This document shows positions 3,615 through 34,854 of a stretch of DNA of 64,000 nt, one piece after another (position 1 is the first letter of the stretch; each line of letters starts with the position of its first letter). A program made the position numbers and the translations under genes. This stretch comes from Eubacterium sp. (lineage in GTDB: Bacteria > Bacillota > Clostridia > Acetivibrionales > DSM-1351). The DNA is taken from positions 38,144-102,143 of the forward strand of contig JAQSXC010000009.1 in NCBI GenBank assembly GCA_029266335.1. Reading direction: 5' to 3'. The notes beneath the pieces are model-generated. The model was not told the origin of the DNA. It did no database searches and saw only the letters and a program-made list of their open reading frames with translations.

Positions 3615-3752
3615 TATGAAAACTTAAATAATGGTATTTATTACTTGGAAAATTATTAAATAACATATAAACAGATGGATGAGGAGTAAATAATCATTAA
3701 TTTTGAGGCCGCAATGCGGCTCAAAGCCATAACCTGGCTCATGGAGGTAAAA

Positions 3753-5912
3753 ATGACTAAAAATCCCGGAAGGGTTACACTTCCCGCAGAAAAGGGAATG
3801 GAAGAGGAAATTCTCAGAATAGCTGAAAAATGGGGCGTAGATGCGGTGCGCGACAGTGACGGTACAAAACTTTCAGACGAAATCCTAAACATGGGTTTTG
3901 ATATATACTCGACCTTATGTCTTATAAGAGAAGACAATGCTTGGACCAAAGCAAACAGGGACTGCCTGCAGCAGACATATTTGCTGTCGGAACCGGTTAT
4001 TGCTGCCGGGAACACAATTAAAGTGGATTTAATGAAAGGGTACTTTTCGGAACAATTTCAGATAGACAGTGTACATGATCCAAAGATCTGGTGGGAGGTT
4101 ATCGACCGTACAACGGGAGATATTGTTCCTGCAGCTCAATGGGCTTTTGAAAAGGATGCGGGCATTGTTACTATAAATAACGCATTGCCATGGCACAAAT
4201 ATACCGTAAGTTTTCTGGCCTGCCAGATATGGGAGCCTGTTTCCATGTACAACCATATAACCAATCAATGGAAGGAAGAACACAGGCTGCCCGTTGATCC
4301 AAGGCATCCAAAGGCCAGGAAACATTTGCTGGAGGTGCTGGAAAAATGGCTTGAAGAGCACCCGGGAACCGATATTGTGAGGTTTACGACCTTTTTCTAT
4401 AATTTTGATCTCATTTATAATGAGAACGGAAGAGAACGTCAGGTTGACTGGTTTGGCTATTTAAGCTGTGTGAGCCCTTCGGCCCTGCAGAATTTTAAAA
4501 AAGAATATGGTTACCGGCTCAGACCGGAGGATTTTATAGACAATGGTTATTACAATACGCCGTTTAAGGTTCCATCAGGCAATTATCTGGACTGGATGGA
4601 TTTTAACCAGAAATTTATTGCCGGCTTTGCAAAGGAATGCGTTGATATGGTTCACAAAGCAGGTAAAAAGGCAATTATGTTTTTGGGTGACCATTGGGCA
4701 GGAACTGAGCCCTATGGGAAATATTTCGGTGAAATAGGTCTGGATGCCGTAGTTGGAGCGGCCGGTGATGGCGTAACCACAAGAATGATTTCAGATATAC
4801 CTGTAAAAGCAACAGAAGCAAGATTTTACCCATATTTCTTTCCTGATATTTTTTATAAGGGAGGCAATCCGGTAAAGGAATCAATGGAAGTCTGGAGGAA
4901 ATCCAGAAGGGCGTTGCTGAGAAAACCAACCGATAGAATGGGCTATGGGGGGTATCTGAGTCTGGCGGCTGCATTCCCTGATTTTGTAGAACATATAGGT
5001 CAGGTATGTGACGAGTTCAGAAGGATTCATCAAATGGCAAGGGGAACAAAACCATTGAGTGCTCCTTTCAAGGTTGCGGTTCTTAATGCATGGGGACATA
5101 TCAGGACCTGGATGACTCATCAGGTAGCCCATTCACTGTGGAATCAAAGGTGTTATTCCTACCTTGGAATCATGGAGGCACTGGCAGGCCTGCCTTTTGA
5201 TCTGGAATTCATCAGCTTCGAGGATATAAGACAAAACGGAATTTCTGAAGATACAGGAGTAATAATCAATGCCGGTGATGCCGGAACATCGTGGAGCGGT
5301 GCAGAATACTGGAAGGATGAAGAAATTGTAACAGCCATCAGAAGCTGGGTATATAACGGAGGAGGCTTTATAGGTGTCGGCGAACCTTCTGCTTATGAAT
5401 ATAACGGTTCCTTTTTTCAATTAAGCGATGTTTTGGGTGTTCAGAAGGAAACAGGGTATTCGGTAAGTCATAATAAACCTAGTATATCTGTTGCAGAAAA
5501 GCATTTTATAACTGCCGATATAAAAAATCCCATAGATTTTGGTGAAGGGATGAACTGTATATATAAGTGTTCCGATTCGGTGGAGGTTCTTGCGCTTAAC
5601 AACCTGAGCTGCTCTCTGACAGTAAATGGTTACGGGAATGGCCGTTCTGTATATATTGCGGGTCTACCCTTTAATATGGAGAACACCAGACTTTTATCAA
5701 GGGCTATCTACTGGACGGCGCATAAGGAAGCTGAAATGCAGAATTGGTACAGTGACAATCCTGAAGTGGAATGTGCAGTTTATCCTGAGACCGGCTGTTT
5801 TGTTGCAGTGAATAACAGCGGCCAAAATCAATTGTCAAGTATATTAAAGCCGTCAGGTGACAGAATAGCAGTCCAACTGGAGCCGATGGGCTACAAATGG
5901 TTTGAAATTTAG
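3753..5912 (+). CDS. 1,3-beta-galactosyl-N-acetylhexosamine phosphorylase (GH112, galacto-N-biose/lacto-N-biose phosphorylase)
   Basis: Family-typical N-terminus GRVTLPAEKGMEEEILRIAEKWGVDAVRDSDGTKLSDEI; ORF track starts at 3714 but GGAGG lies before ATG 3753. Confidence 0.9.
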   Translation: MTKNPGRVTLPAEKGMEEEILRIAEKWGVDAVRDSDGTKLSDEILNMGFDIYSTLCLIREDNAWTKANRDCLQQTYLLSEPVIAAGNTIKVDLMKGYFSEQFQIDSVHDPKIWWEVIDRTTGDIVPAAQWAFEKDAGIVTINNALPWHKYTVSFLACQIWEPVSMYNHITNQWKEEHRLPVDPRHPKARKHLLEVLEKWLEEHPGTDIVRFTTFFYNFDLIYNENGRERQVDWFGYLSCVSPSALQNFKKEYGYRLRPEDFIDNGYYNTPFKVPSGNYLDWMDFNQKFIAGFAKECVDMVHKAGKKAIMFLGDHWAGTEPYGKYFGEIGLDAVVGAAGDGVTTRMISDIPVKATEARFYPYFFPDIFYKGGNPVKESMEVWRKSRRALLRKPTDRMGYGGYLSLAAAFPDFVEHIGQVCDEFRRIHQMARGTKPLSAPFKVAVLNAWGHIRTWMTHQVAHSLWNQRCYSYLGIMEALAGLPFDLEFISFEDIRQNGISEDTGVIINAGDAGTSWSGAEYWKDEEIVTAIRSWVYNGGGFIGVGEPSAYEYNGSFFQLSDVLGVQKETGYSVSHNKPSISVAEKHFITADIKNPIDFGEGMNCIYKCSDSVEVLALNNLSCSLTVNGYGNGRSVYIAGLPFNMENTRLLSRAIYWTAHKEAEMQNWYSDNPEVECAVYPETGCFVAVNNSGQNQLSSILKPSGDRIAVQLEPMGYKWFEI

Positions 5913-11978: not shown

Positions 11979-12007
11979 TTGACATAACAATAATTATATG
12001 ATAATCT
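11979..12007 (+). promoter_or_regulatory. Sigma-A type promoter: TTGACA - 17 nt - TAATCT
   Basis: Consensus -35, 17-nt spacer, near-consensus -10 just upstream of the structured leader. Confidence 0.65.
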
Positions 12008-12047: not shown

Positions 12048-12247
12048 TTTACTCAGGCGTACAGGCGTTCCAATGACGCAGAAGGGTGCAGAAATTGAGA
12101 TATAGCTTGAAAGACTTTACATACGTGTATCTTCCAAGCCAACCTGTGAATTTATGGCCGAGCGAAATATTTAAAGTATTTTTCAATACTTAAAAGCGCA
12201 CATGGCCAATTACCCTCCTTTATTCGCCTTAAAACGGTAGGGGAGTG
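12048..12247 (+). ncRNA. Candidate structured ncRNA or long 5' leader (unclassified)
   Basis: Nested complementary stems: 12055-12059/12225-12229, 12061-12065/12143-12147, 12105-12114/12130-12139, 12155-12159/12204-12208, ~12172-12180/12185-12194. Confidence 0.5.
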
Positions 12248-12294
12248 AGAAAAAATATTATTTGTGGCTGCTATTGCGGCTCATGGAGGTTAAG

Positions 12295-12549
12295 GTGAAC
12301 ACTTTTGAAAATGTGAGTATTGTAAAGAAAGCAAATGTATATTTTGATGGCAAGGTTACCAGCAGAACAGTGGTTTTCCCAAATGGAGAAAAGAAGACTC
12401 TTGGAATAATGATGCCGGGAGAATATGAATTCGGTACTGCAGATAAGGAGCTTATGGAGATACTTGCCGGAAAGCTGGAGGTTCTGCTTCCCGACAGTGA
12501 CAAGTGGGTAGCAGTTGAGGTTACTGCAGACAAAGTGATCGGTGTTTGA
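12295..12549 (+). CDS. ppnP: Pyrimidine/purine nucleoside phosphorylase PpnP-like (DUF1255), C-terminally shortened
   Basis: [59 protein letters not shown] matches the family; GTG start after GGAGG; stop arrives before the family C-terminus. Confidence 0.75.
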
Positions 12550-12825: not shown

Positions 12826-13023
12826 ATGGAGAAATTTGAATACAAAACATTGTTTTCTGATGCCAAGGGAATATTCGGAGGTAAGGTTGACAAATTGACA
12901 TTCCAAAATGAGTTGAATGAATTAGGGTCACAAGGCTGGGAGTTGGTAAATACTGTGGCTACTGCTCAAAGCTATGGAAGTACAAGGTGGATTATCTCAA
13001 TATTTAAGCGCAGGATTCAATAA
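12826..13023 (+). CDS. DUF4177 family protein
   Basis: 65 aa; WEYKT/GWELV-type motif (FEYKTLF...LNELGSQGWELVNTV). Confidence 0.8.
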   Translation: MEKFEYKTLFSDAKGIFGGKVDKLTFQNELNELGSQGWELVNTVATAQSYGSTRWIISIFKRRIQ

Positions 13024-13055
13024 AATCTCAATATTTAAGCGCAGGATTCAATAAA
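12994..13055. repeat. Perfect 31-bp tandem duplication (12994-13024, 13025-13055)
   Basis: ATCTCAATATTTAAGCGCAGGATTCAATAAA twice without mismatch; first copy includes the DUF4177 stop. Confidence 0.97.
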
Positions 13056-20009: not shown

Positions 20010-20304
20010 TTAACCTCCATGAGCCGCATTAGCAGCTACAAAATATTGGTTGATGTGCATAGTTTTTCAGACTTGTATTTCAGACTTAAGTCCTTAAACA
20101 GCCCGTATAACAAAGTGAAAATAAATGTTTATAAAATGAAAATTGTCAGCTGTTAATTTTAGAAAACTATATACATGTTTGTGGTTGACATAAAACTGGT
20201 TTTTGAGTAAAAAAATAGGGCTTTCCCGTATTAGCTCTATAGTATTATGTTAATCTATATGGAGTGAGGCGTCAATTAAAAACATCCTATTGTTAAAAAT
20301 TGCA

Positions 20305-34209: not shown

Positions 34210-34389
34210 ATTAGAGATACGGTATTTAGCAAACTCATTTTTTTATGACTGTGAGATTGTATACAAAGTACTATTTGCGGAAGTGTCAGGGTTGACTTTA
34301 TCTGGCCTTATACTTGAATGTCGGGGTTTAAGGAAAGATTTTGTATTTTATTTATGGGAGCCGCGATGGGGCTCATATAGGAGGCTAAA

Positions 34390-34854
34390 ATGGAGAAGGT
34401 TAGAGAAGTATTGAATCGCTATGGCAATTCAAAGGACAATCTTATTCAAGTAATGTTGGAACTGCAGAATATTTCAGGTACAAATTCACTCCCTCACGAA
34501 TGGGTTGAATTTGTGGCAGATGAGTTGGATATGCCATTAAGCAGGGTATACAGTGTCATCACTTTCTATTCAATGTTCGGCACCGAACCAAGAGGCAAAT
34601 ACGTGGTTGAAGTCTGTAAGAGTGCTCCATGTCATGTTACAGGTGCCAACAGCTTATTAGCTATGTTAGAAAAGGAATTGAAGGTTAAGCCTGGTCAAAC
34701 AACAGAAGATGGAGTTTTTACATTAATACAGTCGGCATGTTTCGGAGCATGTGACATTTCACCTGCTATAAAAATCGGTGAAAAGGTTTATGGAAATCTC
34801 ACATCTGAAAAGCTGAATGAGATAGTAAACTCTTATAGGGAGGGCCAACAATAA
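34390..34854 (+). CDS. NuoE-like [2Fe-2S] subunit of NAD-linked [FeFe] hydrogenase (HydC/HndA-like)
   Basis: EVCKSAPCHVTGA...SACFGACDISPA thioredoxin-like 2Fe-2S ligands. Confidence 0.93.
   Translation: MEKVREVLNRYGNSKDNLIQVMLELQNISGTNSLPHEWVEFVADELDMPLSRVYSVITFYSMFGTEPRGKYVVEVCKSAPCHVTGANSLLAMLEKELKVKPGQTTEDGVFTLIQSACFGACDISPAIKIGEKVYGNLTSEKLNEIVNSYREGQQ

Follow-up and report, generated by a model that had tools for sequence, protein, structure and literature searches.

The window analysed here, a stretch of 64,000 nucleotides from Eubacterium sp. (contig JAQSXC010000009.1), contains a nucleoside-phosphorylase gene, ppnP, and the structured leader upstream of it is one copy of a dispersed repeat. 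The features of this locus, together with two short members of the repeat elsewhere in the window, are listed below, with SD1 and SD2 denoting the left and right Shine-Dalgarno (SD) sequences.

11979 to 12007, forward strand: ppnP promoter, TTGACA-17-TAATCT, read directly; hexamers and spacing identical in the ortholog of the congener G004 (L205)
12097 to 12297, forward strand: full copy of the dispersed repeat, from the decayed SD1 to the ppnP start codon (covariance model R1, alignment A1, own-genome matches)
12097 to 12104, forward strand: decayed left target, SD1, GAGATATA here and GGAGGTTA in most copies (alignment A1, columns 1-8)
12105 to 12139, forward strand: hairpin 1, with double-sided changes at four pairs across copies
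12155 to 12208, forward strand: hairpin 2, its 3' side carrying a conserved 2-nt AT bulge; double-sided changes at five pairs and a homologous hairpin in G046
12209 to 12218, forward strand: anti-Shine-Dalgarno (anti-SD) or target complement, ATTACCCTCC here and ATTAACCTCC in most copies (complementarity, compensatory changes at the atp locus)
12213 to 12245, forward strand: hairpin 3, competing with anti-SD:SD2 pairing; present in the MFE structure of the window copy, and sequence variants re-pair
12266 to 12281, forward strand: hairpin 4, immediately 5' of SD2, with double-sided changes at three pairs
12285 to 12289, forward strand: right target, SD2, GGAGG, 5 nt ahead of the start codon, a spacing kept across copies
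12295 to 12549, forward strand: ppnP-like coding sequence with a GTG start (PF06865, 91.6 bits; start aligned with the ATG of G004)
3707 to 3746, forward strand: short member, hairpin 4 and a second small hairpin followed by an SD, ahead of the ORF at 3753
20011 to 20045, reverse strand: short member, hairpin 4 and GGAGGTTA, ahead of a GHL10/SLH-domain protein

A first-pass annotation had described the leader as an unclassified, multi-branched RNA behind a consensus promoter and ahead of a PpnP-like gene. The identity of the gene was borne out by the PF06865 match and the promoter by its counterpart in G004; a consensus promoter scan did not list this site, and no terminator-like site was found at the ppnP locus. 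The stems proposed as GCTTGAAAGA/TCTTCCAAGC (hairpin 1), as TGGCC/GGCCA plus GCG/CGC around TTTAAAGTATT/AATACTTAAA (hairpin 2) and as CCCTCC...GGTAGGGGAG (hairpin 3) are all present and supported. Two further stems, AGGCG/CGCCT enclosing the whole and ACAGG/CCTGT within it, had to be dropped, as the 5' strand of each lies upstream of the repeat and is absent from other copies. Hairpin 4, the anti-SD and the 35 matches of the leader in its own genome (same-genome search, itself counted) were absent from that reading. No Rfam 15 model matched the window at the gathering threshold, laxer thresholds gave chance matches only, and the raiA motif, suggested earlier as a possible class, was among the models scanned without a match. 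The leader is thus still a multi-hairpin structure without an Rfam class, but not an RNA specific to ppnP, since copies lie at dozens of unrelated genes.

The window copy scored 113.6 bits against covariance model R1 over positions 12096-12218, being itself part of the training set. Its SD1 has decayed, its anti-SD is mismatched (ATTACCCTCC versus GGAGGTTAAG, 8 of 10 pairs), and the outer part of hairpin 1, AGGTTA/TAACCT in relatives, has decayed to GATATA; hairpin 2 has kept a compensatory change, reading TTTAAAGTATT/AATACTTAAA in place of the TTCAAAGTATT/AATACTTTGAA of most copies. Folding of the 201-nt element gave a z of -2.8, with one of 200 shuffles equally good, and the wider 291-nt stretch around it a z of -0.87. 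Apart from the window genome, only G004 carries ppnP in this genus, and there the shared promoter is followed by a leader of ~32 nt without the element, which was therefore either gained by the window lineage or lost from that of G004. If gained, the copy may have inserted into the ppnP leader and replaced the native SD region, and would since have begun to decay. A tandem duplication of ~33 bp (ATCTCAATATTTAAGCGCAGGATTCAATAAA) was also observed at the end of a DUF4177 gene (window positions 13000-13055).

Aligned with their flanks, the copies gave a consensus repeat of ~205 nt lying between two SD sequences, with the overall layout GGAGGTTA-hairpin 1-hairpin 2-ATTAACCTCC-hairpins 3, 4-GGAGGTTAAT-ATG-gene. 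The consensus order in full is GGAGGTTA, hairpin 1, TAACCT, GTGAATTTAT, hairpin 2, ATTAACCTCC, hairpins 3 and 4, CATGGAGGTTAAT and ATG, and hairpin 3 occurs as two sequence types. A covariance model of the 5' part found 24 copies in the window genome (G000), 39 in Ruminiclostridium cellobioparum DSM 1351 (G001) and 40 in subsp. termitidis CT1112 (G009), a few of the weakest probably being chance matches or reverse-strand echoes of true copies. The same model found two copies in G004, both at atpD-atpC, and none in seven other congeners. Searching with the 17-mer of the right end (one mismatch allowed) returned 39, 54 and 60 matches in G000, G001 and G009, respectively, and 0-4 in other congeners, with zero control matches; the G000 assembly is fragmented (356 contigs, 5% contamination). 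Many copies were without their 5' part, the 3' end being fixed and the 5' ends variable, and several showed internal deletions rather than simple 5' truncation. Several contigs of the G001 and G009 assemblies terminate within repeat copies, so that the repeat is probably a cause of assembly breaks. Two loci (L184, L247) carry an alternative 3' module, TTTTTGTGCCTTGAGCACAGCGAAAGGAATGATAGTTAATATG, in place of hairpin 4 and GGAGGTTA, and a possible degenerate short member, GGAGCCGCGATGGGGCTCATATAGGAGGCTAAAATG, lies ahead of an ORF at window positions 34340-34390. The only relative in plasmid, phage and viral collections was a CT1112 fragment in IMG/VR, and a literature search, with most subscription papers outside its reach, found no description of the repeat.

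The stems covary across copies. Over 55 full copies, the pairs of hairpins 1, 2 and 4 and the anti-SD:SD2 helix were 94.3% standard. Double-sided changes in these copies occurred at 14 pairs and in 51 cells, against shuffle means of 5.9 and 12.7 that none of 500 shuffles raised to the observed values; these counts are not independent events, as the copies are related to one another, and the anti-SD:SD2 compensatory changes among them come from atp-locus rows. Slid registers gave at most 10 double-change cells, and the 5' part alone of 20 diverse copies had 22 such cells versus 7.1 in shuffles. A fresh copy folded with a z of -7.8 as RNA and -7.7 as DNA, into three domains bounded by the two SDs. 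Of 94 combinations, 50 had an anti-SD exactly complementary to GGAGGTTAAT over 10 bp, and this complementarity to the SD, with hairpin 3 as the alternative, is the sequence arrangement of a translational attenuator. Structured, covarying leaders need not be riboswitches.

Among right ends with enough sequence beyond them to test, an ORF of at least 60 aa follows 88 of roughly 96 genuine ones, most sites on the right-end list without an ORF being chance pattern matches, and the gap between GGAGG and the start codon is exactly 5 nt in 75 of these 88. Nearly all intact right ends fall on the SD sequence of an unrelated gene. Genes found downstream include those for superoxide dismutase, RNase HII, RNase H, Amj, hydrogenase, lactate/malate dehydrogenase, HPr kinase, SbcC- and RecN-like proteins, glycerol-3-phosphate dehydrogenase, histidine kinases, response regulators and a riboflavin transporter, among others, and this lack of relation argues against a pathway-specific switch. 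The purine- or pyrimidine-sensing riboswitch suggested earlier finds no footing here either, with the G004 ppnP lacking the element and close copies standing ahead of so many unrelated genes. A leader peptide starting from a TTG after SD1 was considered and rejected, given an in-frame stop in the common variants (CCAAACTAA) and frame shifts from loop insertions. Because an SD, a spacer and a start region all come with the right end of the repeat, the gene is not left without a ribosome-binding site; a mobile element that lands on the ribosome-binding site of a housekeeping gene and returns a working one could fill the 5' leaders of important genes.

Comparison of G001 and G009, which are ~97% identical at shared loci, pointed to recent change. 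Among 19 orthologous leader pairs, selected solely for having a right end in one of the genomes, none had the same module order, while coding sequence next to them was 92-100% identical; module labels rest on regular expressions, so single labels may be wrong, and the printed sequences show the differences directly. Three sites without the element in G001 are occupied in G009 (L248/L061, L249/L062, L250/L064), and together with the 19 leaders these indicate recent movement or reshuffling. In the occupied/empty pair L169/L104 the join falls exactly after GGAGGTTA, and the target at L250/L064 is without this word. The start codon at L249/L062 changes from GTG (empty) to ATG (full), from which it appears that the right end brings its own start region. 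Inserts also overwrite flanking bases (AGATG or ATGTG to ATATG; GGCTAAT to GGTTAAT), a pattern more in keeping with recombinational copying than with clean cut-and-paste. A 5'-truncated copy stands in place of the native SD region in the comparison of L106 with L238, and modules join at short shared words such as ACATGGC.

Other sites are old, including one downstream of a response-regulator gene and one at atpD-atpC, where the ATP synthase beta and epsilon genes flank the repeat in G001, G009 and G004 (L206, L207, L208), with two tandem units in G004. At atpD-atpC the SD and anti-SD have changed together across these three genomes. Ahead of atpC, several congeners carry hairpin 4 and the SD alone, and both are missing from genera outside, which suggests that this pair predates the core.

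A relative was found in G046, a genome of another family in the same order, where the covariance model matched with an E-value of 2.6e-7 genome-wide and 6e-9 on the locus, the match running through GAATT-ATGGCCGTGCG...CGCACATGGCCAATT. This genome has 28 matching places (loci L292-L319 and L333-L339 belong to the G046 set). TATAAT-type words stand at both ends of the copies there; on the left, several of them complete a promoter, for example TTGAAA-17-TATAAT (L292) or TTGATA-17-TATAAT (L294), and the right word lies 44-146 nt ahead of the gene start where a gene was readable. At the positions of TAACCT and ATTAACCTCC the G046 copies carry ATTATA-type complements, which follow the variants of the words (GGTATAAT/ATTATACC, GTTATAAT/ATTATAAC, GATACAAT/ATTGTATC and TACAAT/ATTGTA). 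With TATAAT at the ends and ATTATA within, the internal complements thus track the target. Hairpin 2 in G046 keeps the 2-nt AT bulge on varying stems (CGCAC-AT-GGCC, CGGCG-AT-GCGC, TGCAC-AT-GCAC). Contig C237 of this genome holds a tandem array of the repeat with a 127-nt period.

On balance we lean towards the repeat being a non-autonomous mobile hairpin element, probably acting at the DNA level, that uses base pairing to select and rebuild expression signals. It would move as DNA, probably single-stranded: relatives ending in promoter boxes make a purely RNA-level role unlikely as the shared function. TAACCT, 3' of hairpin 1, would pair with the left target copy GGAGGTTA, and ATTAACCTCC, after hairpin 2, with the right target copy GGAGGTTAAT, so that both target copies would be held in stems at the ends of the element. 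Such pairing of internal stretches with the target copies suggests that targets are picked by complementarity, somewhat as with IS200/IS605 guides, although these stretches may be no more than the arms of hairpins. A translational effect of anti-SD:SD2 pairing is plausible as a by-product, and homology copying or break repair may contribute to the spread. More tentatively, the SD-targeting copies in Ruminiclostridium and the -10 box copies in the other family may together represent a new superfamily of small enzyme-moved elements with rewritable target complements, the signal being rebuilt at each insertion. As mobilisers, Y1 transposases (PF01797) and reverse transcriptases were rejected, as their gene counts do not follow the repeat: G002 has 13 Y1 genes without core copies, G009 has only fragments and no intact Y1 gene was found there despite its 40 repeat copies, and the Y1 loci inspected had no element-like ends. 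Two matches to hairpin 1 only (C41 and C44 of G001) were considered as ends of a longer autonomous element and rejected, both running off contig ends.

Spread without an element-specific enzyme would follow if a break near an SD were repaired by copying another leader, beginning in the SD/start region that the two have in common and running upstream to any microhomology. The fixed 3' and variable 5' ends, the joins at common words, the overwritten right-junction bases and the replaced SD region at L106 all agree with this, but at 13 bases the right-end homology is short for RecA, the boundary at SD1 is clean in some copies, and the matched complements and TATAAT relatives are left unexplained; we consider it an unlikely account of the repeat. 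A fixed 3' end with 5' truncation would also result from retro-copying, in which leader RNA is reverse transcribed after priming at the target SD. This we regard as highly improbable: reverse transcriptases are few, occur also in congeners without the element and do not track copy number, several copies have internal deletions instead of simple 5' truncation, and the relatives in G046 extend over a -10 box, a sequence outside the transcript of its own promoter.

The remaining alternatives assign the repeat a regulatory role. In one, a main rival to the favoured reading, the host retains it for regulation as a cis-acting translational switch, with the anti-SD masking SD2 or hairpin 3 masking the anti-SD and freeing SD2, and with copies spread by ordinary recombination and retained because they regulate. 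The frequent exact anti-SD:SD2 complement, the compensatory changes at atpD-atpC, the long-lived sites there and 3' of the response-regulator gene, and the location nearly always at a start codon are what such a switch predicts; downstream genes without a common theme, an architecture kept in none of the 19 leaders between two close genomes, and G046 relatives ending in promoter boxes rather than SDs make it decidedly unlikely. That the leader is a riboswitch or ncRNA specific to ppnP, as its promoter and long structured leader first suggested, is hardly credible given the copies elsewhere in the genome and the empty ppnP ortholog.

Several known systems resemble the mobile element that we favour in part. 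Like translational riboswitches and leaders in Rfam, the repeat places an anti-SD and a competing hairpin ahead of a start codon; unlike them, it has no Rfam match, precedes unrelated genes and is unstable between close genomes. For group II introns and retro-elements, a reverse transcriptase linked to copy number was not found. The repeat is small, non-coding, modular and present in many copies, as are MITEs and other modular repeats of intergenic regions (BOX, RUP); it differs from them in that both of its ends carry one functional word, SD or -10. Terminal inverted repeats, as in MITEs, were not found between the two ends by inspection, the repeated word being the SD itself. REP elements have hairpins with a needed bulge (PMC8266576), and with REP/REPIN sequences the repeat shares high-copy extragenic hairpins, a bulge in the stem and a GGAG-like word at the hairpin foot (PMC8266576). 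Unlike them, it is ~205 nt long with several hairpins and lies on SDs in the sense orientation; no TnpA-REP (PF01797) linked to it was found, G009 having no intact gene. Membership in neither REP/REPIN nor IS200/IS605 is claimed. Elements of the IS200/IS605 group and their non-autonomous derivatives have hairpin ends without terminal inverted repeats, as does the repeat. They also join 3' to a short target word, as seen at L169/L104 but not at L250/L064, and carry internal stretches that pair with both target copies, as proposed for the repeat. They differ in that the repeat's complements are ~6-10 nt long and lie 3' of hairpin 1 and after hairpin 2, rather than being tetranucleotides 5' of the hairpins, that no Y1 transposase tracks the copies, and that the right junction overwrites target bases. 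For IS608, the target can be determined by such base pairing, which is extended when a complement is engineered at the 3' base of the left hairpin (PMC5934647); TAACCT occupies a comparable place in the repeat. The -10 box relatives suggest that target choice may be rewritable through the internal complements, which would make the repeat a possible natural case of base-pair-programmed insertion.
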